Assembly: GCF_038789205.1 (NCBI RefSeq)
Contig: NZ_CP128355.1
Coordinates: forward strand, 186,001 to 250,000
DNA length: 64,000 nucleotides
Reading direction: 5' to 3'
Source of the DNA: Staphylococcus hsinchuensis
GTDB lineage: Bacteria > Bacillota > Bacilli > Staphylococcales > Staphylococcaceae
Positions 46,628 through 59,557 of this stretch are shown here, piece by piece; within the stretch, counting starts at the first letter, position 1, and every line of letters begins with the position of its first letter. The notes under the pieces were generated by a model, which saw nothing but the letters and a program-made list of their open reading frames with translations, was not told the DNA's origin and did not search any database. Position numbers and translations under genes: made by a program.

Positions 46628-47995
46628 ATGAGTTACAGTATTGGTATAGATTTTGGTACTTTATCAGGTCGTGTCTTTTTAGTAGATACTGACGATGGTA
46701 GTATTGTCTCCTCATATGAGAAAGATTATCCACATGGCACAATTTCAGAGCAACTCAATGGCTCGCCTTTACCCCATAACTATTTTCTCCAAAACGCGAC
46801 AGATTATACTTTAATTCTTGAAGAAGGCATCAAAAATGTTATAGAACAAAGCAAAGTAGATACAGATAATATCATCGGAATAGGTATAGACTTTACGAGC
46901 TGTACGATTGTTTGCTTAGACGAACACTTTAAACCTATGCATACACATGACAATCTAAAAAATAACCCTCATGCTTATGTTAAATTATGGAAACACCACG
47001 GCGCTCAAGATCAAGCTTCATATATGAAAAAAATAAGTGACCAACATCAATCAAATTGGTTAGATTATTATGGTCATAATGTGAATAGCGAATGGATGGT
47101 TCCAAAAATTTTAGAAATAAAAGAACAAGCACCAGAAATATTAGAGCAGACGGCTTATATTATGGAAGCTGGGGATTATATTGTCAGTTTATTAACGGGT
47201 AACAATATACGTTCAAATTGTGGCATCGGTTTTAAAGGATTCCATAATGAAGAAACTGGATTTAATTATGACTTTTTCAAAGCAGTAGATCCAGAATTAC
47301 CTGCAATTATTAAATCCAAATGTGAAGCACCTGTCATTGACATTGGTGAAAGTGCAGGCAACCTCACTCAAAGTTATCAAAATCTATGGGGATTAACGGA
47401 TAAGGTACAAGTGTCACCTTATATCATCGATGCTCAATCAGGCGTGCTTGGTGTGGGTGCTATCGAACAAGGTGAATTCACTTCAGTTATAGGTACGAGC
47501 ACATGCCATCTTATGCTTGACCCTAAACAAGTGCCTATCGCAGGTATCACTGGTTCTGTTAAAAATGCAATTATCCCTGGTCTGTATGCTTATGAATCAG
47601 GCCAAGCAGCGGTCGGAGATTTATTTAAATACTCTGCCAACCAAGCACCTAAATCTATCGTTGATCAAGCGAATCAGGCTAATATTTCAATATTAGAGCA
47701 GTTAGAAAAACTCGCATCAGACATAGATATTGAACAACAACATGTCACAATTTTAGATTGGCATAATGGTAATCGTAATATTTTAAATGATAGCCATTTA
47801 ACAGGTAGTATCTTCGGTTTAACGCTAAATACACCTTTTGAAATGGTCCATCGTGCGTATTTAGAAGCTACGGCATATGGGACGAAAATCATTATGCAAC
47901 AGTTTGAAGATAACGACGTACCTATTCATACCGTTTATGCTACAGGCGGCATACCACTAAAAAGTGAATTACTCGTTGATATTTATACAAATGTA
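46628..47995 (+). pseudogene. araB: L-ribulokinase, 5' part, cut by the island
   Basis: About 455 in-frame residues of ribulokinase. The FGGY N-terminus is IGIDFGTLSGRVFLVD, IGIDFTSCTIV follows, and the C-terminal lobe contains VIGTSTCHLML and VYATGGIPLKSELLVDIYTNV. At that point the chromosome changes to island sequence, which adds 13 foreign residues and a stop at 48037. The missing 85 residues are at 59304-59557. The joined gene would be about 540 residues, the family length. AraB phosphorylates L-ribulose; activity should be lost while the island is present. Confidence 0.92.
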
Positions 47996-48002
47996 ATAAT
48001 AA
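47980..48002 (+). other. attL of the island
   Basis: The chromosomal arm TATTTATA, then the seven-base centre CAAATGT (47988-47994), then the island arm AATAATAA. araB identity ends at this centre. Confidence 0.8.
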
Positions 48003-48092
48003 TTATATATTGTTTTCATTCCCTAAAACTTCCATAACCTTATTAAATCAGTAATTATGTCGATTTTTAACACTGATTATTTTTCATAGGTT

Positions 48093-48131
48093 TGCCCTTA
48101 TTTCCATTTAGGTGCCCTTTTTTCGCCCTTA
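48093..48131. repeat. Left-end integrase arm-site candidates
   Basis: TGCCCTTA (48093), TGCCCTTTTTT (48113) and CGCCCTTA (48124) lie about 105-140 bases inside attL. The last two are 11 bases apart. The same motif occurs at the right end. Confidence 0.55.
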
Positions 48132-48202
48132 AAATTCCAACTCAATACATCATCCCTTTAACACGTTAAAACGTTAACATATATCAACAGATTTCCACTT
48201 AA

Positions 48203-48241
48203 TAAAAAAGCCACCAAATACAAAAAAATGTATTCAGTAGC
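48203..48241 (-). terminator. Terminator of the RinA-like gene
   Basis: On the minus strand GCTACTGAATACA pairs (with two G-U) with TGTATTTGGTGGC, followed by six T. Confidence 0.8.
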
Positions 48242-48319
48242 AAAGCAATGCGATTTATTTATTTTTGTGTCGTGACTATATTATAACATAGTTATTTATT
48301 ATAATTCTATCAATATACA

Positions 48320-48643
48320 TTAAACATATCCAATATTCTCAGCTAATTGAAATATCAATGCATTACGTCGCCTTAATATACTTGTTTTACTCGTACCAAA
48401 GTAATCAGCGATATCAACCCATTCATTGCAACCAATGGGACATTCCCAGTATCTTAATCGCATCATGTCTAATGTATCATCGTCAGATTCTTTTATTATC
48501 TTATCCATGCCCTCAACAACATTCTTAAGATTGGCCTTGCGTTTATCATCTTCATGCGTCGTTGCAAGCTCTATTCTATACTGTTCTACATGCTTAATAT
48601 AATCCTCTAACTTCCTTATATCGTATTTCTCAATAGTTATCAT
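48320..48643 (-). CDS. RinA/ArpU-like phage transcription regulator
   Basis: A protein of about 107 residues. A helical N-terminus is followed by a sigma-70 region-4-like HTH at residues 75-105 (WVDIADYFGTSKTSILRRRNALIF). RinA/ArpU proteins activate late or packaging promoters in phages. I start it at an ATG six bases behind GGGGG. It forms its own unit between two terminators, downstream of terS. It could activate the island's packaging operon or interfere with helper late transcription; both are inference. Confidence 0.65.
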   Translation of the reverse strand: MITIEKYDIRKLEDYIKHVEQYRIELATTHEDDKRKANLKNVVEGMDKIIKESDDDTLDMMRLRYWECPIGCNEWVDIADYFGTSKTSILRRRNALIFQLAENIGYV

Positions 48644-48767
48644 CATTAGCCCCCACATTGATTATATTCACACTATTATTATATCAGTGAGAACGGTATA
48701 TAACACTTTACTACCCTATGTATCACTTAAACTAATTTCGATGCACGAGAGAGGCTCTCTCAGAACA

Positions 48768-48798
48768 CAAATAACCCCACCTAACTTAATAGATGGGG
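48768..48798 (-). terminator. Terminator of the packaging operon
   Basis: On the minus strand CCCCATCTA, six bases, TAGGTGGGG (one G-U), then TTATTT. It lies 47 bases after terS. Confidence 0.7.
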
Positions 48799-48844
48799 AA
48801 ATAAGTATTATTGAAAGTTATTACTTTAGAAAATAGTGTAACAG

Positions 48845-49396
48845 TTAATTATTATCAGGTATATCATCTATAATTTTCGTAGCATTAGGATAAGTGTTAT
48901 CTATTTGTTTTTCATATTCTTCGTCCCATTCTCCTATGCTTATTAAAATAGGTGTATCGCCTTGAATTTCTTTTTTATCCGTATATAAAGCGTGGTACTT
49001 CCCAAGCAACTCAAGGGCTCTATTACGGTCTGATAATTTAGCAGGGACTTCAATTTTTTCAATATGGTCATTATACACTATCTCTGATTTTTTCGTGGTT
49101 GGATTCTCCATAAATTCCCCTTTTCGCAATACAAAGGCTCTTGTGTCCATTGTTTCGCCGACTGCTGTACGTGATAGCAAATAAAGGACTGCATTAGCTT
49201 GTAAGATATCTTCATTTATCATTTTTTCTTTATGCTCATTAATGAAGTCTTTAACCTTATCCGTATGCAATAACCTACTTCCTGAAACTCTAGCAGTGTT
49301 TTCGCTGTACCCTGCCTTAATTGCTGATTGGGTTGCATTGAACGTCTTAAGATACTCAACAGCAAATTTTTCTTGCCTATTCGTTAATTTTGCCAT
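48845..49396 (-). CDS. terS: Terminase small subunit
   Basis: A 183-residue protein that starts at the ATG 49396, six bases after GAGGTG. The N-terminal HTH (KLTNRQEKFAVEYLKTFNATQSAIKAGYS is the start of the family) and the RLLHTDKVKDFI stretch identify the Terminase_2 family. In SaPIs an island-specific TerS pairs with the helper's large terminase and steers packaging to the island pac site. It is the last gene of the packaging operon, as in SaPIs. Confidence 0.9.
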   Translation of the reverse strand: MAKLTNRQEKFAVEYLKTFNATQSAIKAGYSENTARVSGSRLLHTDKVKDFINEHKEKMINEDILQANAVLYLLSRTAVGETMDTRAFVLRKGEFMENPTTKKSEIVYNDHIEKIEVPAKLSDRNRALELLGKYHALYTDKKEIQGDTPILISIGEWDEEYEKQIDNTYPNATKIIDDIPDNN

Positions 49397-49445
49397 ATCA
49401 ATCACCTCACAGAAAAAGGGTAGGTATGGCCTACCCTCGTCATGT

Positions 49446-49658
49446 TTATTTTACAATGCGATTTTTATTCGCTAATTCTTTCAAGTTTTTTTGACCCTTA
49501 CCATTTCCGATTGCTTTCTTACTAAGTTGCACACTTTTTTTAATATCTGAGTTCACTGAATTTTTGATTGCTGTGGCTAGTTCTTCATCAATAAGCTCAC
49601 TATCTAATAACTTATTAATTGTTTTATCTGTGTTGTTCATTCTAATGATTTCCGTCAT
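49446..49658 (-). CDS. cpmB: CpmB-like capsid size-redirecting scaffold
   Basis: A 70-residue, highly helical protein ending KELANKNRIVK. SaPI1 CpmB is about the same length and ends in a capsid-binding RIIK-type motif shared with helper scaffolds. The order upstream of terS also matches. CpmB acts as an internal scaffold that makes small capsids. Its ribosome site AAGGGGTG overlaps the stop of the preceding coiled-coil gene. The family match is from memory of the motif. Confidence 0.65.
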   Translation of the reverse strand: MTEIIRMNNTDKTINKLLDSELIDEELATAIKNSVNSDIKKSVQLSKKAIGNGKGQKNLKELANKNRIVK

Positions 49659-49660
49659 GG

Positions 49661-50254
49661 TTACACCCCTTTTTTAAATTGAAGTTTATTATTTTTCATA
49701 TTGATAAATGGTAAATCTGCACCTTTATTTATATAGTCACTGTAATAACCCTCTCTAAAGTATGGGTTTAATTCACGTCTTAATGATTCTTTTTCGTGGA
49801 TATGTTCGTGATTGTATAATAAAACAAATTCACGGTGCTCATCTCTGTAACGTTCATTAATGTCATTCACTTTGTCCATCAATGCGTTATATTCTTCAAC
49901 AACGTCTTGTAACTTGTTTAACACGTCTTGTTTTTCATCATTGTATAAATGTGGTAATTCGGCCTGATGTTTAATTAATTCAACCGTTTTTCTATCTCTA
50001 GCCTCTTGTGACACTTCTTTTTTCATGTTTAAACGTTTTGTCATTGCTTTAATTTTATCATCATTGTTTGCAATCGTTGAATAAAGTTTATCAGCCTCAT
50101 CATCTTCACCATTAGCAACTAATCGCTTATATTCTTGTTGGTTCTGGTCGTTCTCTTTTCTCAAGCTATTGCGTTCTTGCTCAAGGTTTGCAATGTTTTG
50201 AGTTTGGTTATTTACAAATTCATCATACTCATCAAATAAATGTTGCGTTTTCAC
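49661..50254 (-). CDS. Coiled-coil island protein; CpmA candidate
   Basis: A 197-residue protein that starts at GTG 50254 behind AGGAGGTAATACA; an upstream in-frame extension overlaps the gp10-like gene and lacks a ribosome site. Residues 10-130 are strongly charged and coiled-coil-like (NLEQERNSLRKENDQNQQEY). It precedes the CpmB-like gene, as cpmA does in SaPI1, but I cannot confirm homology from sequence memory. Confidence 0.5.
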   Translation of the reverse strand: MKTQHLFDEYDEFVNNQTQNIANLEQERNSLRKENDQNQQEYKRLVANGEDDEADKLYSTIANNDDKIKAMTKRLNMKKEVSQEARDRKTVELIKHQAELPHLYNDEKQDVLNKLQDVVEEYNALMDKVNDINERYRDEHREFVLLYNHEHIHEKESLRRELNPYFREGYYSDYINKGADLPFINMKNNKLQFKKGV

Positions 50255-50270
50255 TGTATTACCTCCTAGA

Positions 50271-50621
50271 TTAACCGAATATTTTTTTGAAATCAGATTG
50301 AATACTTTTTTGTATCTTTTGATAAGCTGGGAACATAAATGTTTCTGGTTCCATGTATCTTGTCCCATATTCAAGATATGCTGAATAATGTGCGTTTGAG
50401 GTTACTTCATAATTTAGATGACCTGATTTAGTATCTTCAATCATTCGGGCAAGGGTACCCGTCCAATAACCTTTGTTCATGACACTTTTAGCATTCTTTT
50501 GAGCCTCAATCGTTAATTCTCTGGCATTACGTTCTAATATTTCATCAGCATCATCATCGACACTATTAAGCATAGAATCTAAATGATTAATTAAACCATC
50601 AAAGCTATTACTTTTACCCAT
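50271..50621 (-). CDS. HK97 gp10-like head-tail completion protein
   Basis: A 116-residue protein. The region KNAKSVMNKGYWTGTLARMI, then NAHYSAYLEYGTRYMEPETFMFPAYQK, fits the HK97 gp10/tail-completion family: the YSAYLEYGT core and PxxFMxPA end. Such proteins join neck and tail in siphophages. A single member in an island without other tail genes suggests it modifies or replaces a helper part in island particles. Confidence 0.7.
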   Translation of the reverse strand: MGKSNSFDGLINHLDSMLNSVDDDADEILERNARELTIEAQKNAKSVMNKGYWTGTLARMIEDTKSGHLNYEVTSNAHYSAYLEYGTRYMEPETFMFPAYQKIQKSIQSDFKKIFG

Positions 50622-51152
50622 TTAATAAGCTACCTCTTTCCTGTTTTGTCTTTCTTTTTTCAATCGTTCGAGCTTTGCTCTTTTACGGGCTTTACCCCTT
50701 TCGATTCTAAGGCGTTTACGGGCTTGTATTTCGTCATTTACTGCCATGTTGCGTTGATTCCTATAATAATTCAATAAGTCCATTAAATCGTGTTTTAAAC
50801 GGCTTATAACAGGGTGCGACTGTTTACCATCAGAATCAAAGAACTGTTGAATAGCATCTTTTTCAGCGTTGGTATAAGATGCTGTAGCTTTTTCTAGTAA
50901 ATTTAAATGGTATTCACATTTTCGTATGTACTTTTCAAGCTTTGCTTTTTGTTCCATGATTGAGATAGCAAGATTTTCAAGGCTGAAACTCTCGTAATAA
51001 ATCATTTCACTGTTAGCATCACAAACTAAATGTGGTAAGTTACGTTCATACATCGTATTAATATCGTACTGGATATCTTGTATGTGACATTCCATATAAC
51101 GCCGATTGAATCGGGTTAATAGTTCATAATCACTTAAAACCATTAAATCCAC
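50622..51152 (-). CDS. Island protein of unknown function, basic C-terminus
   Basis: About 176 residues, mainly helical. The C-terminal 40 residues are very basic (RKRLRIERGKARKRAKLERL), which suggests nucleic-acid or capsid-interior binding. The start is either GTG 51152 or ATG 51143. It abuts the gp10-like gene (TAA then ATG). Similar proteins are annotated only as pathogenicity-island proteins. Confidence 0.55.
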   Translation of the reverse strand: MDLMVLSDYELLTRFNRRYMECHIQDIQYDINTMYERNLPHLVCDANSEMIYYESFSLENLAISIMEQKAKLEKYIRKCEYHLNLLEKATASYTNAEKDAIQQFFDSDGKQSHPVISRLKHDLMDLLNYYRNQRNMAVNDEIQARKRLRIERGKARKRAKLERLKKERQNRKEVAY

Positions 51153-51162
51153 CAGCTCCCCA

Positions 51163-51501
51163 CTATACTACTTCCATAATCTCCATTTCTTTCAAAGCGT
51201 CATAACGTTTTAAGCTTCCATTTATTTGCACTCGAATACTTCGCATAGCCTCTTCTTTTTGCTCTGGTGTGCGTATGATGTAATAGCCTCGTGCGTACTT
51301 CTTATAACTGCAACCGATTGGATATCTGTATAGTTCCACAAGCTCATTAATAACCTGCCTAAGCCATCTTTCAGTATTTGCATTATATTCCAGACCTAAG
51401 ATGTTAATGATTTTTTTATTAGTAATATATGTGTCTGGTGTATTATCAATAATATTGTAAACCTGTAAATATCTAGTAGGTACTTCTTTAGTCGTTGACA
51501 A
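51163..51501 (-). CDS. Island protein, winged-helix-like; first gene of the packaging operon
   Basis: 112 residues from a TTG (51501), eight bases after GGAGG. The N-terminal half has a winged-helix pattern (NKKIINILGLEYNANTERWLRQVINELVE) followed by a basic wing (GCSYKKYARGYYII). It is first behind the promoter at 51575-51603. It could regulate the operon or interfere with helper transcription. Confidence 0.5.
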   Translation of the reverse strand: MSTTKEVPTRYLQVYNIIDNTPDTYITNKKIINILGLEYNANTERWLRQVINELVELYRYPIGCSYKKYARGYYIIRTPEQKEEAMRSIRVQINGSLKRYDALKEMEIMEVV

Positions 51502-51574
51502 GTAAAACACCTCCTTAATTGTGTCCTACTTTCCTCCTATTCTCCTACTTTTCGTTTTTTCTCCCTATACACTA

Positions 51575-51603
51575 ATTATATAATTTTATCCACTTAATAG
51601 CAA
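51575..51603 (-). promoter_or_regulatory. Promoter of the island packaging operon
   Basis: On the minus strand TTGCTA (51603-51598), 17 bases and TATAAT (51580-51575). Just upstream are two direct repeats GTTCGTATTTT (51610 and 51721). Another pair begins AATGTTAA at 51635 and 51668. These are candidate activator or repressor sites. No full LexA box was found. Confidence 0.5.
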
Positions 51604-51754
51604 TTTATTGTTCGTATTTTTACGACACATTCAAAATGTTAACAGACATTGAATTTACTGGAATTACAATGTTAATAGAATATTGATATAAGTTTCACAG
51701 CCTCCCTCAGACTTCCATAAGTTCGTATTTTATATATTTTATTTATACAAATTG

Positions 51755-51790
51755 TAAAGAAAGACCTGCACAAATTAATGTACAGGCCTT
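51755..51790 (-). terminator. Terminator of the island replication operon
   Basis: On the minus strand GGCCTGTAC, eight bases, GTGCAGGTC (one G-U), then TTTCTTT. It separates the replication and packaging operons. Confidence 0.7.
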
Positions 51791-51816
51791 AAATTGCTTA
51801 ATCATCTATAATATAT

Positions 51817-51879
51817 TTATCCCATTCCTTTATTTGCTTGATGTTCAACATTAATTGGCAAACATTTATATTCACTCAT
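51817..51879 (-). CDS. 20-residue peptide gene at the end of the replication operon
   Basis: ATG 51879 follows AAGGAAG and encodes a 20-residue peptide that begins MSEYKCLPINVEHQ. It is the last ORF before the terminator. The ribosome site is good, but so short a gene needs translation evidence. Confidence 0.35.
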   Translation of the reverse strand: MSEYKCLPINVEHQANKGMG

Positions 51880-51893
51880 ATAATCTTACTTCC

Positions 51894-52529
51894 TTACATG
51901 GTCTTGTTTGCGTTTTTAAGTTCCATCAATGTACTTTTAAGCTTTTCAAAATCCGATTCAGTTACTTCTTCATCTTGAACATAATCAGTAACTAACCTTA
52001 ACGCTTGAACCACTTCTTTACTAGGGTTATTTAACGCTATAGCTGACTGGTAACACCACTCTAATACACCTATACAATCATTGATACAGCTTTGTTGTCC
52101 CTCAACTTCCTCAACATTGCATTCACGCCCAGTTAATTCAAATATATTAGCATTTTGAGTTTCGGCGATTGTTTCAAGTCCTACCAAGAAATAAACTTCT
52201 GTTAAATTATTAAAAATCCATTCTTCTAAAGTCATATCGCCACTTTCTAATTTTATCCCTGTATAGTTGTGTTCAATCGAAGTCAATAACCTTTCAATGT
52301 GTTTAATTGATGCGACTTCAAATATCTCATTGATTTTATTGTTTTTTTCCGTGTCCATTTTGGCAAATAACTTTCCGTTATTATAAATAAATAACATATT
52401 GAAAGGGTCGTTTTTCATCTTAAATTGAATCGCCTCATCATTATATTTAGATACTGCCCACATAAACAAGTTTAATACTTCGCTACCTCTATTGTTAAAA
52501 TAATCATTTTCTAATTCTAATATATACAT
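51894..52529 (-). CDS. Acidic island protein of unknown function
   Basis: A 211-residue acidic protein starting MYILELENDYFNNRG behind AGAGGAT. No motif recognised. It lies after the primase-polymerase gene in the replication operon, a position where SaPIs often carry helper-interference or island-specific genes. Confidence 0.55.
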   Translation of the reverse strand: MYILELENDYFNNRGSEVLNLFMWAVSKYNDEAIQFKMKNDPFNMLFIYNNGKLFAKMDTEKNNKINEIFEVASIKHIERLLTSIEHNYTGIKLESGDMTLEEWIFNNLTEVYFLVGLETIAETQNANIFELTGRECNVEEVEGQQSCINDCIGVLEWCYQSAIALNNPSKEVVQALRLVTDYVQDEEVTESDFEKLKSTLMELKNANKTM

Positions 52530-52530
52530 A

Positions 52531-52809
52531 TCATAATCCTCTTTTCTTTTTTATAAATTTTAAATATTGTTTGCACCTTGCTATAATTAAATCGAAATTA
52601 CCTCTAGCAATATATTTATAACTTTTACATTGTTTACTATATGGTAAATAGGTTTCACGCCATGCAACCCACTCATTATTGATTAATTCAACATATAACA
52701 CTGAAACATGGCTTATTGAACAAAAATATACCTCTTCTGATATTCCAACTATTAAACCAATGTTTTTAGCTTTGTTATCTAAGTCGTGGGGTGTTTGAGT
52801 TTTTGGCAC
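52531..52809 (-). CDS. Small island protein overlapping the primase gene
   Basis: 92 residues from a GTG at 52809, overlapping the 3' end of the primase-polymerase gene by 35 bases. A basic tail (KQYLKFIKKKRGL) closes the protein. It ends two bases before the following gene. No family recognised. Confidence 0.5.
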   Translation of the reverse strand: MPKTQTPHDLDNKAKNIGLIVGISEEVYFCSISHVSVLYVELINNEWVAWRETYLPYSKQCKSYKYIARGNFDLIIARCKQYLKFIKKKRGL

Positions 52810-53602
52810 TCTCTACAGTCCTTTCCCATTGGTCTGCAGTCAATACATCGCCATTCTTATTATCTCCTATCAATATGCGTAAGGGTTCGATATCAACATT
52901 ATATTGAACAGCGTAAGATACTGCTTTGAAGAGGTCATCATTTCTAAAACTACTAGTACCTTCTATAATACGTTTATAAGCTCGTTTCCCTTCTCCTCCT
53001 TTACCACCTCCTTTAAAGTCCGTAAAATCGTAATGAGGTAGTACATTATTAACTGAGAATCGCTCCATTAATTGTTTTTCATAATTGCCCCGTTTAGAAA
53101 AAATACGCTTTTCAAACTTTCCATTATAATGTGTAACATCGTTTCCATTATGCGTGTAAGTACCCTTGTTTGTGCGACTGCCAGCAAGTACAAAATAGGT
53201 ATTATAATGAGCTTTGATATCAACAGAAGGTAAGTAATTGATTTTCTGACTATATTTGATATCATTTCGCTTTTTAAATATGACGTGCTTACCTCCACTC
53301 GCTGTTGTTTGTACTAACGTATTATTCATATTGTTAACAAACTCATCGTAATAAGGTATTTCTTTGAGGCTATCGAACCCATTTTCATTATCTGTATGAT
53401 TAACATCAATATCGACACACCATAAACCACGAGCAAGAACACCAAGTACATGCGTACTTTCATATAAGTGTTGATTACTCTCAATAAACTGTGAATCTAT
53501 CTCGATATCCTTAAAGGCTACTATGGGTTTTTTATATACATCTAAGGGTATAATTTGAATTTCTTTATTTAATAAATGTTTTGCAACATGATAACCTGAC
53601 AA
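52775..53602 (-). CDS. pri: PrimPol-type DNA primase/polymerase
   Basis: A 275-residue protein that starts at TTG 53602 behind TAGGAGGTG. The AEP/prim-pol fold is shown by the metal motif CVDIDVNHTDNENG near residue 65, QTTASGGKHVIFKK near 100 and SVDIKAHYNTYFVLAGS near 125. A C-terminal helical part includes a glycine-rich linker GGGKGGEGKRAYK. It primes island replication. It lies immediately downstream of the iteron origin. Confidence 0.8.
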   Translation of the reverse strand: MSGYHVAKHLLNKEIQIIPLDVYKKPIVAFKDIEIDSQFIESNQHLYESTHVLGVLARGLWCVDIDVNHTDNENGFDSLKEIPYYDEFVNNMNNTLVQTTASGGKHVIFKKRNDIKYSQKINYLPSVDIKAHYNTYFVLAGSRTNKGTYTHNGNDVTHYNGKFEKRIFSKRGNYEKQLMERFSVNNVLPHYDFTDFKGGGKGGEGKRAYKRIIEGTSSFRNDDLFKAVSYAVQYNVDIEPLRILIGDNKNGDVLTADQWERTVESAKNSNTPRLR

Positions 53603-53625
53603 ATTTTTGCACCTCCTAATTAGAA

Positions 53626-53891
53626 GGTAACCCTTGTACCCCTATTTTTTTCCTACATACCTACTACCAATTTACTTAATAAAAATCTGTATACTTTTCA
53701 AATAAGGTTATAAGGGTTACAAGCTGTTATCATCGAATTTATAAAGGTTACCTAAGGGTTACCTAAGGGTTACCGTAACCCTTCTTTTTAATTTTGGTGT
53801 ACTATTACACTTTTGAATAATGGTTACATAGGTTACCGAGAAAAAAATTTAAACTTTATAAGGGTTACCTAAGGGTTACTTAAGGGTTACC
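53626..53891. other. Iteron-type replication origin of the island
   Basis: The repeat AAGGGTTACC or close variants lie at 53743, 53754 and 53765, exactly 11 bases apart. A second set lies at 53860, 53871 and 53882, again 11 apart. Inverted copies lie at 53626 and 53775, and weaker copies at 53712 and 53828. The two sets flank about 75 bases of AT-rich DNA. SaPI origins have this plan: iterons on both sides of an AT-rich unwinding region next to rep. Confidence 0.85.
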
Positions 53892-53894
53892 AAT

Positions 53895-55508
53895 TTATGA
53901 TTCTTTTAGTAATTTTAATGCAAGGTTAAAAAGAACAGGGTTACCAATTAGATGTACTTTCGCATTAATTCCTTCAATCTTTTTTTGTTTATTGACCACA
54001 ACACCGATTTTTTTCATATCTTCTTTAGCTCGCTTATTTTTCAAGTTTTTATAATCTTCTTCAATCAAAGGTCGTAATGTTTCATCTCCGGCAGGGATAA
54101 AACCTTGTTTTGCTAATGTCTGTAAAATAACAATCTGTGTTTCAGTTAAATCATCTTCACTAAAGTAATTTTTTAATGTTACATGATTAAAAATGAATTC
54201 TTTTCCAATCTCTTTAAGGTATTCTAAACTTGCAATCAAAAATGATACTGAGGCTATTTCTGAATTTTCATTATTCGGTTTAATAAAATCCCAATATGGT
54301 TTAAATATCTTGTGTCTTTCGTCTACAGTTTCATCTTTCGGTCTGTCTTTAAATGCAATTTTTACAGTTCGGGAAGTATTAGCAGTTATTTCCCCAGTAT
54401 CTACACTTTCATTAGTATCTAATATAAGAACTGAACTATTATCAAACTTATATGAATTACTCCCGATACCTCTACCAGTAATCGTTTCACCAGTCGCTAT
54501 TTTTCTTAATATACGCATCATTTTCGGGGAAATTTCTCCCGTTTCATTAGCGTGAGCTACATCAGTTCCGTAAAATTTCAACCATTCGTTAGAGGCCTCA
54601 AAGCCACCAGCTAATAAACTATCAAAGTTAACACGATTGACCTTCAATAACTTTTTTAATGTTTCTATAAATAATCCTTTTCCAGTTCGTCCGAAATCTT
54701 TAAGTAAGAACCATTTTTCTGCATGAATAAGGTTCATTTTACGAAACATCGCATAGGCGTGTAATAGCCTTACATTGTTTTTACTCTCTTCGCTATCAGT
54801 AAATGAATCAAAGAAATCTTTGACTATGCTAGTATTGATGTCTTTTTTATCCACATCGTATTTCAAGGCATATAATTCTTTCGGTTTCGGTGTATGTTTT
54901 TTGTATTCTAATGAATCACAATTATAAATCCAGTCATTACCAGCAAACGAATATTGCAATATCTTATAATCATGCTCATCGCTGAAATGCTCTTGATATA
55001 TTTCAATCATAATTTTTAAAAAATCATCTATCTGATGTTTCTTGTCTACTGGATAATTTAGTAAAAAACTAGTTTCGTCTACTTTTTCGTAGGTGTTATT
55101 CTTCGCTATAACAAAACATTGCAACACTTTTGAAAAAACAACTTTATGTGTCATTAAATCAACGATAAATCTAGCGTAGTTGTTAAATCTACTATTTTTA
55201 AATGTTGCTTTCTTTTCATCATTGCCATCTTGTTCAACATTTTTAGTGTTCACTTGCCCATAAACACACCCAATGTTTTTAGGAATTATGATATAATCTA
55301 TAGTGAGATTACTTATATAATCCCCGTAATCTGATTTTTCTGTGTGGTAAACGTTGCCCAAATTATTAAATATTTGTTTTTCTGAACTAATAGACGCAAA
55401 ATGTATTCGCTTGCTTATTTCTTTAATTTTAGATAAGTTGGGAGAATCCACATTATCTAATGTTTGATGAAACTTAACATGTTTCTTATATAATGAAACT
55501 TCATCCAT
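53895..55508 (-). CDS. rep: Island replication initiator/helicase (Rep; D5/VirE-like)
   Basis: A 537-residue protein. The ATPase core has Walker A GRTGKGLFIE near residue 270, HANETGEISPKMMRILRKI, ATGETITGRGIG and VLILDTNES, typical of phage/plasmid SF3-type helicases. A winged-helix tail near residue 460 (TETQIVILQTLAKQG) may bind the iterons. SaPI Rep proteins bind and melt the origin that follows their gene, and the iterons begin four bases after this stop. It starts behind AAAGGAGG. Confidence 0.82.
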   Translation of the reverse strand: MDEVSLYKKHVKFHQTLDNVDSPNLSKIKEISKRIHFASISSEKQIFNNLGNVYHTEKSDYGDYISNLTIDYIIIPKNIGCVYGQVNTKNVEQDGNDEKKATFKNSRFNNYARFIVDLMTHKVVFSKVLQCFVIAKNNTYEKVDETSFLLNYPVDKKHQIDDFLKIMIEIYQEHFSDEHDYKILQYSFAGNDWIYNCDSLEYKKHTPKPKELYALKYDVDKKDINTSIVKDFFDSFTDSEESKNNVRLLHAYAMFRKMNLIHAEKWFLLKDFGRTGKGLFIETLKKLLKVNRVNFDSLLAGGFEASNEWLKFYGTDVAHANETGEISPKMMRILRKIATGETITGRGIGSNSYKFDNSSVLILDTNESVDTGEITANTSRTVKIAFKDRPKDETVDERHKIFKPYWDFIKPNNENSEIASVSFLIASLEYLKEIGKEFIFNHVTLKNYFSEDDLTETQIVILQTLAKQGFIPAGDETLRPLIEEDYKNLKNKRAKEDMKKIGVVVNKQKKIEGINAKVHLIGNPVLFNLALKLLKES

Positions 55509-55579
55509 CTTCTTGCCTCCTTTTTGTACAAAGTGGAGTCATGTTACAATAATCACACCAATATACATTGGTAATTTCG

Positions 55580-55903
55580 TTATGCGTTATCTGATTCAGT
55601 CGCCAAACTTTCATCAGATAGCGTATTTTTTGCGTCTAATTGCTCAACGTTTTTGATAATTGCATCAAAATCATTGAGATAACTTATTAAAAGCTGTTCA
55701 GTATGATTGTGTTGTATCCTGCTTTCCTCATACGCTAATAAATAGCTTTCACTCTCTTCTTTACTTGCTATGAGTTCATCAGCAGTACAAGTATAAACAT
55801 CTTCAATAAGCCATTGATGTGCTTGAACTACATCGCTAATTTTATCCTTAAGTGTTTCCAATCTAATTTTGATATTTTCTAGTTCAAAATGTGCTTGATT
55901 CAT
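55580..55903 (-). CDS. DUF1474 family island protein
   Basis: A 107-residue helical protein. The stretch LETLKDKISDVVQAHQWLIEDVY resembles DUF1474 proteins found almost only in staphylococcal islands, upstream of the replication genes. Function unknown. It follows GGGAGG. Confidence 0.65.
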   Translation of the reverse strand: MNQAHFELENIKIRLETLKDKISDVVQAHQWLIEDVYTCTADELIASKEESESYLLAYEESRIQHNHTEQLLISYLNDFDAIIKNVEQLDAKNTLSDESLATESDNA

Positions 55904-55918
55904 TAGGTTAACCCTCCC

Positions 55919-56293
55919 TTATTCATAAAAAACTAAATAGTCTTTGTGCTCTGCTTGAATCTGTTTGATTAATTTTTCAATTTCTTTCTTTGCTAAATAC
56001 AAATCGTTTAAATCATCTTCACGAGCAAACTTCACAACTTCGTATTTTTTTGAATTCTGTGATAATATCATGACGTTTTTGGCAAACTCTGAATAGTTAT
56101 TCATAGCTGTAAAATTCATTGCTAATTTTTCAACATCTTCATCATTCATGTCTGGGTGCGTACTTTTGATAAGAGAAAAGTCCCTAGAATATCTTTGTTC
56201 GTTCTCCATTTCTTTATCGTTTTCCATTCTATCTATATATAATTTTGCCATAATTGTTTTATAATCCTGTTTATTTAATTTCTTCATCTTCAT
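55919..56293 (-). CDS. Island protein of unknown function
   Basis: About 124 residues, highly charged and helical (DRMENDKEMENEQRYSRD). ATGs at 56293 and 56287 both follow AAGGAG. It overlaps the 3' end of the preceding membrane-peptide gene. No family recognised. Confidence 0.55.
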   Translation of the reverse strand: MKMKKLNKQDYKTIMAKLYIDRMENDKEMENEQRYSRDFSLIKSTHPDMNDEDVEKLAMNFTAMNNYSEFAKNVMILSQNSKKYEVVKFAREDDLNDLYLAKKEIEKLIKQIQAEHKDYLVFYE

Positions 56294-56435
56294 CAATCTC
56301 CTTATTATTTAATGGTATAGCTAAAATACTTGTTAATACTTGTGTCGTAATGGCAAGGTACATGTTACTTGTGAGCAAACCTATTTCAAACGCTACAACA
56401 GTGATAAAAGCAACAGTTAATGAATAACGAACCAT
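56271..56435 (-). CDS. 54-residue island membrane peptide
   Basis: ATG 56435 follows CAAGGAGTGG. Two short hydrophobic helices precede an acidic tail NKEIDEDEEIK. Its start overlaps the stop of the Xis-like gene (TAATG). Small membrane proteins at this place are common in SaPIs; the role is unknown. Confidence 0.6.
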   Translation of the reverse strand: MVRYSLTVAFITVVAFEIGLLTSNMYLAITTQVLTSILAIPLNNKEIDEDEEIK

Positions 56436-56707
56436 TATAACCACTCCTTGTTGCATTTCTTAAAATACTCCTCAAACTTTTGAATATTAATGACTTTCAA
56501 TGTTGGAGAAAGATAAAAATATAAATCTTGAACTCCTTTGTTATCGTCCTCCCATTGCTTTAAATAACGTCTTACCGTACTCGTTGAAATTCCGAACACT
56601 TGCCCTAATGCTTTCGGTTGTGCGAACTTTGGATAAAATACAACTTGCTCGGGTTCGACTGCTGTATTTTGTTTTGTTGGTATATCTTGCAGTTTTGTAT
56701 GTGGCAT
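56435..56707 (-). CDS. xis: Excisionase-like HTH protein
   Basis: A 90-residue protein with a helix-turn-helix at about 34-52 (LGQVFGISTSTVRRYLKQWE). Size, HTH and position right after the Str-like gene fit SaPI Xis, which directs excision with the integrase. The assignment is by context; it could be another small regulator. Confidence 0.55.
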   Translation of the reverse strand: MPHTKLQDIPTKQNTAVEPEQVVFYPKFAQPKALGQVFGISTSTVRRYLKQWEDDNKGVQDLYFYLSPTLKVINIQKFEEYFKKCNKEWL

Positions 56708-56742
56708 ATATTTTTCCTCCTAACATAGTAATTCATAGTGAA

Positions 56743-56946
56743 CTAACTAAAAAAAATTTCATCAATGGTAATTTTTGGAAAAAGTTTTTTTCTTAACATA
56801 TCTCTAAATAAGGTCATTTCATTAATATTAAAGTTTGTTTTTCCGTTCTCTTTCATTCTGTATGACTGTGTAGATATTCCAAATTCTTCAGCCATTGAAT
56901 CTTGTGTTTTTCCTAACATTTTTCGATAACCAGCTATTTTGTTCAT
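56743..56946 (-). CDS. str: Cro-like XRE regulator (Str-like)
   Basis: A 67-residue XRE protein that starts at ATG 56946, eight bases after GGAGG. The HTH is MLGKTQDSMAEEFGISTQSYRMKENG. It diverges from the long repressor gene, like Str opposite Stl in SaPIs, and heads the leftward operon. Confidence 0.75.
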   Translation of the reverse strand: MNKIAGYRKMLGKTQDSMAEEFGISTQSYRMKENGKTNFNINEMTLFRDMLRKKLFPKITIDEIFFS

Positions 56947-56960
56947 TTTTGCCACCTCCT

Positions 56961-57033
56961 AAACATAGTAAAACATAGCGTTATGAAAAAGTCAACAAAA
57001 AACATAGCAAAACATAACAATATGTTATATAAT
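56961..57033. promoter_or_regulatory. Divergent promoter and operator array of the island switch
   Basis: AAACATAG occurs at 56961, 56971 and 57000, and AAACATAA at 57010: two pairs, each with 10-base spacing. Inverted TATGTTAT follows at 57021. The rightward -10 TATAAT (57028-57033) and a leftward -35 TTGACT (56995-56990) lie in the array, so a bound repressor would block both promoters. Confidence 0.6.
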
Positions 57034-57052
57034 CGCTTATGAGGTGATATAC

Positions 57053-57958
57053 TTGGATAAAATTGGAGTGGGCAAAAGAATCAAAAATATACGCCTTGAA
57101 CTTGGACAATCCATGACTAAATTCGGTGAAACTATTGATAAAAATAAATCTGTTAAGTCTGGCGTTGTATCAAATTGGGAAAATGGTAAGCAATTACCTA
57201 ATAAAAAAAGACTTCAAAAAATTGCCGAACTTGGTAATGTAAGTGTCGATTATTTATTACATGGTTTAGATGATAAAACTCTAAAAGTCGGAAAAGAATT
57301 TTACAACCATTTAATAGATATGTATCCAAATACTACGCATGACGGTAAGGCATTACGCTTTTTTGACGTAAATAAAAGAAATGACTTGATTATAAGAGGT
57401 ATAAACGCAGTTTTTAATGACCCTCTATATAGTGAGGAAGTACATACGATAGATGATATTGATGGACTATTTAATTATTGTTGGCCTATGCTAAACATAT
57501 TTGTAAATGAATACGAACGTGAACACATATCTAATCCAAACCTAATACATTCAATTAGGCGTAAGGTTCTGCAAATTTTAAGAGATTTAGAAAAATATGA
57601 CAGTGAAAAGAAAATAATGACGATTGAACCAAATACAAATAAGTTCCCTGAATTAAGCGATTCAATTATAAATGTGAATGCTATAAATAATTTAGACCCA
57701 AATCTATTAAAAGATATGCATGATTTATTTACTAATTTATATAGAATTTTAGATAAATATGAAATGAAATACCCCGATTTAGATACATTAAAAGACTACC
57801 CACAATTTTATGAAATAAGAGAAAATAACACTAAAAAATTATTCACTAACGATTTAATTAAAACAATTCAGCTAAGTAAATCGCAAGATATTGAATCATT
57901 TATAACTAAAAACATCGACGATATTCTAAGAGAATACCAAACGAATAGAAAGGAGTGA
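57053..57958 (+). CDS. stl: Stl-like master repressor
   Basis: A 301-residue protein that starts at TTG 57053, five bases after GAGGTGA. Residues 1-65 form an XRE HTH (GKRIKNIRLELGQSMTKFGE...VSNWENGKQLPNKKRLQKIAELGNVSVDYLL). The remaining 230 residues are helical without a LexA-type protease motif. SaPI Stl proteins are relieved by binding a helper-phage protein rather than by SOS cleavage, and the C-terminal region here would set the inducer. It ends six bases before int. Confidence 0.8.
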   Translation: MDKIGVGKRIKNIRLELGQSMTKFGETIDKNKSVKSGVVSNWENGKQLPNKKRLQKIAELGNVSVDYLLHGLDDKTLKVGKEFYNHLIDMYPNTTHDGKALRFFDVNKRNDLIIRGINAVFNDPLYSEEVHTIDDIDGLFNYCWPMLNIFVNEYEREHISNPNLIHSIRRKVLQILRDLEKYDSEKKIMTIEPNTNKFPELSDSIINVNAINNLDPNLLKDMHDLFTNLYRILDKYEMKYPDLDTLKDYPQFYEIRENNTKKLFTNDLIKTIQLSKSQDIESFITKNIDDILREYQTNRKE

Positions 57959-57964
57959 TTATAA

Positions 57965-59176
57965 ATGTGGTATGAGGAATACACCGATAAACATGGCCAA
58001 CTTAAATATCGGTTTTATGAGAAGTATAAAGACCCCTACACAGATAAATGGCGACGGGTTTGCGTCAATATGAATAAAAAGGGTAAGCAATCACAAAAAG
58101 AGGCTCAGAGACGCTTAAATGAGCGTATAGAGGCTAAGATTAAGGATAAAACACCGAACAACATTAAAACTTTAACATTTCATCAGTTATGTGATGAGTG
58201 GTTAGATACGTATAAAAAAACTTCTGGTGCAAAACAAACAACGATTGTTTTAAGAAAATGTAACATTAAATTTATAAAAAAATATATCCCTAAAGATGTT
58301 CTAGTAAAGAATATTAATAATGTGATATTACAAGAATTTATTGATGAGGCTCATAAAGAAGTCTCGCATGCTTATTTAACGCATAACTGGTCAACAGTTA
58401 AAAACATATTAAATTATGCTAAAAATCACTATGACATTAATAATATTGACTTTATAGATAGAGTTATCATACCTAAAAAAGCTAAATCTAGGGAAGAAAT
58501 AAAAGCAAAACGTGAGAATTATCTGGAAAAGCATGAGATTGATAAACTTGTAGAAAATATTTATAATTCGATTGATGAAACTGATGTAAAAGCAAATAAA
58601 CAAAACCTATTAATGACATCATATATTGTTGAATTTTTAGCATTAAACGGTATGCGTGTAGGCGAACTGTTAGCAATACAACCTAAGAACATAGATTTTA
58701 AAAATAAAACGCTTGAGATTGATGGAACGATACATTGGACAAAACAAGGCAATGGATACGGAATCAAAGATACAACTAAAACCGAATCTTCTTATAGAAC
58801 CATTTCTTTAACTTCAAGAAGTTGCGACATACTAAAAAAAGCAATGTTACAAAATAAAAAGCTAGCTCAATGGGAACCAAAATATAACGATAGAGGTTTT
58901 ATATTTACAAACATAAAAGGTAATCCTCTAAATACAGTTTCAATAAATAAAATTGTTCAGAAATCTGCAAAAAACGTATGCATTAAAAAGCATATATCCA
59001 GTCACTCCATGCGTCACAGCCACATCTCTATGCTTTCACAATTAGGTGTGTCATTAAAAGCTATTATGGAACGTGTCGGACACACCGACCATAATACAAC
59101 TTTAAAAATTTATTCTCATGTTACTGAACAAATGGATAAAGACATGATGAATAAATTAGAAAAAATAAGCAAATAA
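57965..59176 (+). CDS. int: Tyrosine-family integrase
   Basis: A 403-residue recombinase. An N-terminal arm-binding domain (about 1-60) precedes a SAM-like core-binding domain (65-165) and the catalytic domain with Arg in LNGMRVGELL, His-x-x-Arg in HSMRHSH near 347-351, and the nucleophile in LKIYSHV near 383. It starts behind AAAGGAGTGA. The gene ends 125 bases before attR, so it should catalyse integration into and excision from araB. Confidence 0.95.
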   Translation: MWYEEYTDKHGQLKYRFYEKYKDPYTDKWRRVCVNMNKKGKQSQKEAQRRLNERIEAKIKDKTPNNIKTLTFHQLCDEWLDTYKKTSGAKQTTIVLRKCNIKFIKKYIPKDVLVKNINNVILQEFIDEAHKEVSHAYLTHNWSTVKNILNYAKNHYDINNIDFIDRVIIPKKAKSREEIKAKRENYLEKHEIDKLVENIYNSIDETDVKANKQNLLMTSYIVEFLALNGMRVGELLAIQPKNIDFKNKTLEIDGTIHWTKQGNGYGIKDTTKTESSYRTISLTSRSCDILKKAMLQNKKLAQWEPKYNDRGFIFTNIKGNPLNTVSINKIVQKSAKNVCIKKHISSHSMRHSHISMLSQLGVSLKAIMERVGHTDHNTTLKIYSHVTEQMDKDMMNKLEKISK

Positions 59177-59208
59177 ATAAGGACAGAAATTGCAAAACTT
59201 TCACAAGT

Positions 59209-59230
59209 TGCCCTTTTTCTGCCCTTTTTT
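59209..59230. repeat. Right-end integrase arm-site candidates
   Basis: TGCCCTTTTT at 59209 and 59220, 11 bases apart in direct order, about 90 bases inside attR. They match the left-end copies. Confidence 0.55.
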
Positions 59231-59292
59231 TATGTTAAAAATAACCTTAAATCGCTATAAAACCTTTTGTTAAGCCTTTTTAATTTATATCG

Positions 59293-59315
59293 TTATTATT
59301 CAAATGTATTAAATA
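59293..59315 (+). other. attR of the island
   Basis: The island arm TTATTATT (59293-59300), the centre CAAATGT (59301-59307) and the chromosomal arm ATTAAATA. araB sequence resumes at the centre. Confidence 0.8.
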
Positions 59316-59557
59316 AAGAAGTTGTCGTCATTGATTCTACCAACGCTACCGCTTTAGGTGCGGCAATGCTAGGTGCCACTGTAGGAGGCGCTTATAATTC
59401 TTTACGAGAAACTGTTGAGTATATGAAACAACCTGTTTATTATCGAAAGCAACCCAATCCAGATAAAGTCACAGCCTATCAAAAACAGTTCGAACGTTAC
59501 AAAGCTCTTCACGATCTACTCGGCCAATCATATCCACATCTCTCACGATTAAAATAA
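59304..59557 (+). pseudogene. araB: L-ribulokinase, 3' remnant
   Basis: The last 85 residues of AraB, from NVLNKEVVVIDSTNATALGAAMLG to the natural stop. The frame matches the 5' part exactly across the CAAATGT centre. It has no start of its own that I would trust. Confidence 0.9.

Follow-up and report, generated by a model that had tools for sequence, protein, structure and literature searches.

Introduction

Staphylococcal pathogenicity islands (SaPIs) are phage satellites that, as described in PMC11661146 and PMC5052747, travel in virions made of helper phage proteins and take over late transcription, packaging, and the size of the capsid. Their genes cpmA, cpmB, ptiA, ptiB, ptiM, and terS are reported to form one operon, operon I, under the control of LexA (PMC5052747, PMC12409344). 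For the phage-inducible chromosomal islands (PICIs) of Gram-positive bacteria, PMC6092414 gives as criteria a common gene organisation, unique genes, no structural genes, a unique insertion site that prophages never occupy, a size of typically about 15 kb, and induction by, packaging in, and interference with phages; some PICIs described there carry a capsid homologue, making the criterion on structural genes non-absolute. Here, we describe an element of 11,313 bp that interrupts the ribulokinase gene araB of Staphylococcus hsinchuensis (assembly GCF_038789205.1, contig NZ_CP128355.1); the window, i.e., the whole stretch of DNA analysed, comprises 64,000 nucleotides (positions 186,001 to 250,000 of the contig, forward strand). 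Judged by its gene content and by related loci, the element is a phage satellite of the SaPI group, and its operon I includes a tail completion gene. A tail completion gene of its own sets the island apart from the relatives that we examined.

A Tail Completion Gene within Operon I

In phage 80alpha, the tail completion protein gp51 (equivalent to HK97 gp10 and SPP1 gp16.1) is described as a single copy that caps the DNA end, links the DNA to the tape measure, and contacts DNA through N55, Y78, F81, and R87 (PMC11661146). The island gene at 50271–50621 encodes a protein of 116 aa and sits between a PtiM-like gene, which ends at 50622, and cpmA, which begins with a GTG start codon at 50254 behind the sequence AGGAGG. 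Its product matches TIGR01725 (E = 1.4e-16; 61.1 bits against a cut-off of 30.8), phrog_5, annotated as “tail completion or Neck1” (E = 2e-20), and residues 6–115 of PDB chain 9mu2_P (E = 1.9e-33); by these matches, the gene encodes a full-length tail completion protein of the HK97-gp10/phrog_5 type, homologous to 80alpha gp51. We take 9mu2_P to be 80alpha gp51 because it carries N, Y, F, and R at positions 55, 78, 81, and 87, as counted along the alignment; the code 9MU2 is absent from the text of PMC11661146. In comparison with 80alpha gp51, the satellite-encoded protein shows homology over the full length and keeps Y78 and R87, but has T in place of N55 and Y in place of F81.

Thirty-five distinct phage copies of the protein (34 viral copies and that of a prophage resident in the same genome) were compared with the island version. 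In 37 columns, at least 95% of these copies agree; the island protein retains 33 of these columns. F81 is present in 35/35 copies, while two of 11 copies from the genus, a set that includes the prophage, carry Y. Of the four columns not retained, two correspond to DNA contacts; this pattern, noticed afterwards, provides weak evidence of adaptation. The best phage match of the island protein reaches 58% (StB12 of S. hominis), so the gene was not captured recently from any phage in the collection.

The start of the completion gene abuts the stop of the PtiM-like gene with zero bases between them, and the ribosome binding sequence of cpmA is preserved. At the DNA level, phage-like similarity covers approximately 50249–50603 and satellite-like similarity resumes by 50253–50289, with one match resuming at 50319, among the matches listed; the gene thus appears to have been cleanly spliced into operon I. 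These observations bear on whether the gene is an unused passenger that recombination with a phage brought in, as might be suspected of a gene present in a single satellite among those searched. We consider this quite unlikely, as the frame is intact, the start follows the PtiM-like stop without a gap, the cpmA ribosome binding sequence was spared, and a drifting gene should have lost more than four of 37 conserved columns at a best match of 58%.

Distribution of the Tail Completion Gene

Relatives of the island were collected as 82 loci fetched by the integrase or the helicase (53 viral and 29 genome loci), not all of which are proven satellites, and as 51 viral loci fetched by CpmA, which an alignment-based repeat recovered after a single-sequence scan of the viral contigs had found none; these sets overlap, and some contigs were fetched twice. 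A completion-protein profile, built from the 35 distinct copies and the island's own, matched 0/53 viral and 0/29 genome loci (0/82 in total) and, at E ≤ 0.1, 0/51 CpmA-fetched loci. As a positive control, the profile matched 91/91 phage loci; because this gene had served to collect these loci, and some of them had contributed to the profile, the control shows that the profile works rather than how far it reaches. Conversely, the best 80 of 187 viral loci with a completion gene all contain connector or tail genes and no other gene of the island (E ≤ 1e-5). Across 83 genomes of the genus, a completion gene was present in 10, including the island-bearing genome, and every place except the island adjoins connector and tail genes. 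Seven plasmid records have a match to the tail completion protein, all below 60%.

Spacing within operon I gives a similar picture. The space before cpmA measures −14 to 81 bp in 47/50 cpmA-defined loci, versus 367 bp in the island, where it is occupied by the completion gene. Three loci with a gap of 260–409 bp before cpmA (L268, L306, and L307) were considered as parallel insertions and rejected; in these, the frame of a preceding long PtiM-like gene is broken and there is no extra gene. A literature search found, among the matches listed, no report of a chromosomal island with a tail completion gene.

Assignment of the Island to the SaPI Group

The gene organisation of the island includes an integrase, a master regulator, and a replication module, as in PICIs. 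Genes unique to such islands are represented by PF16560, the CpmA-like protein, the phrog_5609 helicase, and phrog_6810, which are common to many of the 82 loci: among these loci, the first gene of operon I was found in 55, a PF16560 gene in 51, a helicase in 31, and a primase in 31. The first gene of operon I is accompanied by terS in 33/82 integrase- or helicase-fetched loci and in 49/51 CpmA-fetched loci. Integrase relatives (E ≤ 1e-60) are present in 16/83 genus genomes, including the island's own, as well as in 36 viral contigs; of these 36 viral loci, 32 have a match to the phrog_534-type protein, 30 to the first gene of operon I, and 28 to the PF16560 protein. PF16560 was found in 15/83 genus genomes (the island's own included and one match being a fragment) versus 0/14 control genomes. 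The size of 11,313 bp, below typical, agrees only loosely with about 15 kb. No near-identical sequence was found among phage records. Judged by homology of these core genes, the island would work like a PICI; predicted genes for phage-dependent induction, packaging, and interference are present, and we class the island as a variant rather than a plain member.

When 18 island frames were compared with Pfam, PHROGs, and NCBIfam, no family of large terminase, portal, capsid, or lysis proteins was recognised; nor did seven head and tail proteins encoded by the resident prophage have a match in the window at E ≤ 1. This agrees with the first-pass annotation, made from the sequence alone, which had noted an element without large terminase, portal, or capsid genes; likewise, the integrase, divergent regulators, replication module, and TerS that it named were all located by the family scans, as was, by eye, the CpmB-like protein. 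Its proposal of a PICI plan stands for the SaPI-type organisation and genes, but an absence of structural genes does not hold strictly, since one virion gene, for tail completion, is carried. The annotation recognised no virulence cargo and took unknown small genes to make up the accessory content; no superantigen or resistance gene was recognised here either, and tail completion, RinA-like, and TscT-like genes, which it had missed, were identified.

The tail completion and RinA-like genes could also be read as remnants of a decayed prophage rather than as parts of a satellite. We regard this as hardly credible and have rejected it, as no head or lysis genes were recognised, while the satellite-type replication genes, PF16560, CpmA, and the order of operon I are intact and the listed genes are open frames. 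Operon I of the satellite consists, in order, of the first gene, a PtiM-like gene, the extra tail completion gene, cpmA, a CpmB-like gene (by eye), and terS; no ptiB-like gene was identified in this operon.

The island has in common with satellites of the SaPI1/SaPIbov1 type that have CpmAB an integrase, an Stl/Str-like switch, iterons with primase and helicase, PF16560, and an operon I with CpmA-, CpmB-, and PtiM-like proteins and TerS. It differs from them in its araB site, its 8-bp core, the tail completion gene in operon I, the RinA-like gene after terS, the lack of a recognised superantigen or resistance gene, and the lack of an SOS box in our search. Like capsid-forming PICIs (PMC12597102) and like SaPIbov5 and PmCI172, which have a capsid homologue (PMC6092414), the island carries a gene homologous to a phage virion gene; those elements carry head genes, whereas the island carries a single tail/neck gene.

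Insertion in araB

The 5′ part of araB (46628–47995, forward strand) contains 456 native codons and the 3′ part (59309–59557, forward strand) contains 82 codons and the stop codon; the reading is broken after base 47995 and taken up again at 59309. The truncated frame (46628–48037), composed of the 456 native codons and 13 codons from the island, matches the NCBIfam ribulokinase model NF003154 (E = 6e-166). When 46628–47995 is joined to 59309–59557, a single open frame encoding a kinase of 538 aa results. An 8-bp direct repeat, CAAATGTA, is found at both limits of the element. A genome of the same species (G033, Staphylococcus sp. Marseille-Q5304) has an uninterrupted araB, i.e., an empty site; its alignment with the joined flanks extends for 1988 bp and shows 3 mismatches and 0 gaps. 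Because this empty site defines the limits, rather than a hunt for repeats, they are firmly set, and a chance repeat taken for an attachment site was ruled out. The first-pass annotation had placed an 11.3-kb element splitting araB at 47988–59308, which proved correct to the base, and had expected excision to restore the frame exactly, as is borne out by the 538-aa open frame and the gapless empty site. It had also suggested comparing strains with an intact araB, which yielded G033 and the uninterrupted loci described below. Lacking the C-terminal 82 residues, the island-bearing allele has probably lost kinase activity, as judged from the truncated frame.

An araB-type gene was detected in 36 of the 83 genus genomes at E ≤ 1e-60, leaving 47/83 without one at that threshold. 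All 29 other araB-type loci fetched (30 including the window's own) are continuous across the insertion site, with no other element there, making the island insertion a single occurrence. One genome contains a divergent araB-type gene (G012:C16:1400–2659) with two adjoining matched stretches separated by approximately 33 unmatched query residues, a pattern like that left by an internal deletion. As the araB frame is restored exactly in the joined flanks, and as PMC10111431 describes a helper-embedded satellite that delays an interrupted gene, the insertion might represent a reversible gene switch, with the kinase brought back, as part of a regulatory scheme, by excision when a helper attacks. 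This is very improbable, given that the insertion is found in one genome only and that the gene is dispensable in the genus, with 47/83 genomes having none at E ≤ 1e-60.

Among 44 integrase-relative loci (flanks of 1.5–10 kb where the contig allowed; duplicates and distant integrases included), only the window's own had an araB match nearby, and a literature search that was not sharp found, among the matches listed, no report of satellites using araB or ribulokinase as their site. A target could be named for seven of 20 relatives whose downstream flank was inspected; we take these to be the 3′ end of guaA (L075, L088, L002, and L004), rpsR (L078 and L079), and a metQ-like gene (L076).

These comparisons raise the possibility that the island normally attaches elsewhere and that araB is a secondary site. 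The core of 8 bp is short compared with the limit repeats of L088 (15 bp), L004 (16 bp), and L078 (at least 24 bp); the seven relatives with named targets occupy 3′ ends apparently left intact, while araB is broken; 11 other places in the island-bearing genome have 2 mismatches to the 17-mer of the inferred excised form, equal to the empty araB site; and the upstream arm of attR and the guaA-type core of the same species both contain TTATTATTC. On the other side, the inferred attP and attB agree at 15/17 positions, including all 8 positions of the core, no place in this genome outside the island ends has fewer than 2 mismatches to the 17-mer, and the guaA site of the genome stands vacant. The overlap sequence alone is not diagnostic, as conversion after integration can remove mismatches from the overlap. 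On balance, we give a secondary site slightly less than an even chance. The araB insertion adds a coding-region target to the sites of this integrase group and provides a case of short-core, gene-breaking insertion.

Genome G033, empty at araB, has a satellite related to the island at the 3′ end of guaA (L088, G033:C1:1958000–1976000). The two satellites are alike in integrase (63%), CpmA (44%), TerS (53%), and PF16560 protein (37%); in the G033 satellite, guaA is apparently intact, extra PtiM-like and 109-aa genes precede terS, and there is no tail completion gene.

Gene and Feature Map of the Island

The features of the island are listed in Table 1. The names Stl, Str, and Xis are presumed for the regulators; ptiM is likewise our presumed name for the 176-aa gene, assigned by position and length. 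The CpmB-like protein had no family or structural match of its own in Pfam, PHROGs, NCBIfam, or PDB searches; PDB searches for CpmA and the helicase also gave nothing useful, and a search with Stl matched helix-turn-helix (HTH) proteins only. In relatives, mostly the N-terminal part of the Stl-like repressor matches, with a locus from Macrococcus (L006) matching over 90% at 30% identity. The primase-polymerase protein matches at 62–67% in the 11/36 integrase-defined viral loci having one, and the TscT-like gene was matched in 31/82 related loci.

Table 1. Attachment cores, genes, and regulatory features of the araB island (positions in the window).
Feature	Position	Strand	Evidence and remarks
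attL core CAAATGTA	47988..47995		direct repeat; TTATACAAATGTAATAA
attR core CAAATGTA	59301..59308		direct repeat; TTATTCAAATGTATTAA
RinA-family late gene activator-like protein, 112 aa	48320..48658	-	TIGR01636 E 1.3e-8; phrog_36 E 1.1e-15
terS, satellite small terminase	48845..49405	-	PF03592 E 4e-33; 44–56% identity to TerS of related loci
CpmB-like protein, 70 aa	49446..49658	-	directly after cpmA; 70-aa equivalents in relatives, similar C-terminus (by eye)
CpmA-like protein, 197 aa	49661..50254	-	phrog_11658 E 4.6e-51; 46% identity to L132
Tail completion protein (HK97-gp10/80alpha gp51 type), 116 aa	50271..50621	-	TIGR01725, phrog_5, PDB 9mu2_P
PtiM-like operon I protein, 176 aa	50622..51152	-	phrog_6810 E 1.2e-28; in 50/51 cpmA-defined viral loci
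First operon I gene, 115 aa	51163..51510	-	phrog_2113 E 4.1e-25; in 50/51 cpmA-defined viral loci
PF16560 “SAPI” protein, 211 aa	51894..52529	-	E 7.4e-39
Small satellite protein, 92 aa	52531..52809	-	phrog_20734 E 2.7e-34
Primase-polymerase domain protein	52775..53602	-	phrog_695 E 1e-27
Putative replication origin	53727..53902		two iteron clusters GGGTTACCTAA, period 11, beside helicase gene
Replication helicase (Rep)	53895..55508	-	phrog_5609 E 6.6e-154; 62–65% in 20 viral loci
TscT-like toxin of toxin-antitoxin pair	55580..55903	-	PF07342 E 2.1e-16; NCBIfam TscT 76 bits, under cut-off of 100
125-aa protein found in other satellites	55919..56296	-	matches in 14/36 viral loci
HTH DNA-binding protein, possible excisionase	56435..56707	-	phrog_534 E 2.1e-29
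Str/Cro-like regulator	56743..56955	-	HTH_3 E 8.7e-6
Divergent regulatory region	56956..57043		repeated AAACATAG motifs, by eye
Stl-like master repressor, 304 aa	57044..57958	+	HTH_3 E 6.3e-8
Tyrosine integrase, 403 aa	57965..59176	+	PF00589 E 1.8e-25; phrog_1 E 4.1e-75

RinA-like matches were found in 11/83 genus genomes, the island's own included. Of the 14 RinA-like loci besides the island, two (L327 and L328) have the gene next to a satellite-type terS, the gene following terS in L077/L327 and in L328; L329 lies on a contig with a PF16560 gene, five (L321, L322, L323, L325, and L330) lie beside TerL, in phage contexts, and six (L317–L320, L324, and L326) were assigned to neither group. Satellites are reported to inhibit late activators of the RinA class (PMC5052747, PMC8125051); a satellite RinA-like gene behind terS may switch on the late genes of the helper.

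A pac-type prophage in the same genome (G000:C1, approximately 1155200–1199300, limits by eye; L091–L093) is a candidate helper. Its genes include those for small and large terminase, portal, minor head, scaffold, major head, adaptor/connector, and completion proteins; the tail completion gene is located at 1179930–1180256 and encodes a protein 56% identical to the island copy. Among the large terminase families, PF03354 is not represented in the genome, and PF04466 is represented once, in this prophage.

Proposed Role of the Tail Completion Protein

The joint explanation that we consider probable is that a SaPI-type satellite inserted in araB across the 8-bp core by means of its own integrase and follows a SaPI cycle to which a tail completion step of its own has been added. 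By analogy with known SaPIs, Stl would keep the satellite silent until a helper phage protein lifts it; Int and the excisionase would then excise the satellite, restoring araB; Rep would replicate it from the iterons; the satellite TerS, together with the large terminase of the helper, would package satellite DNA; and CpmA and CpmB would shrink the capsid. The completion protein, produced alongside the proteins that resize the capsid, would enter tails between the packaged DNA and the tape measure. From its homology and its place in operon I, we infer that the satellite would build, or poison, tails with its own protein; tails with the satellite version may be a gain for the satellite or a cost for the helper. 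Tentatively, and with less than even confidence, we suggest that the completion protein of the satellite would decide which tails finish and how the DNA end is held, completed tails thereby belonging to the satellite.

Several observations weigh against this proposal. The arrangement was seen in only one genome among those searched. N55 is present in 35/35 distinct phage copies and in 11/11 genus copies, and its replacement by T could make the island protein less active or altered. The TerS of the resident prophage belongs to another PHROG than that of the satellite (309 versus 51). Furthermore, no SOS box of the form CGAAC-N4-GTTCG (CGAACNNNNGTTCG, up to 2 mismatches; a simple consensus only) was found before operon I; in the window, this pattern had 11 matches versus 11.2 expected. 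The promoter region of operon I (51500–51730) contains two AATACGAAC half-sites and no paired SOS box.

The same gene could instead be an interference weapon that replaces the protein of the helper, resulting in particles that eject their DNA poorly. Operon I is a plausible location for such a gene, as capsid resizing or inhibition of late phage functions is the task of its other genes (PMC12409344, PMC5052747), and T at position 55 is found in no compared phage copy, with position 81 similarly departing from the F of the distinct copies; furthermore, the phage protein Tab is described as blocking tail assembly as a defence (PMC10884400). However, both residue changes are conservative, the change at position 81 is also found in phages, and the satellite draws working tails from the same pool, so that poisoning would be self-harmful unless coupled to small heads; we find a weapon rather unlikely. 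Because the gp51 structure has been solved in SaPI1 particles (PMC11661146) and the residues are known, the role of the satellite's completion protein is directly testable. If the proposed role is true, it would represent a new control point of piracy, at the single-copy protein that joins DNA to the tape measure, and satellite piracy would act at the neck too, beside head size, terminase, and late transcription.

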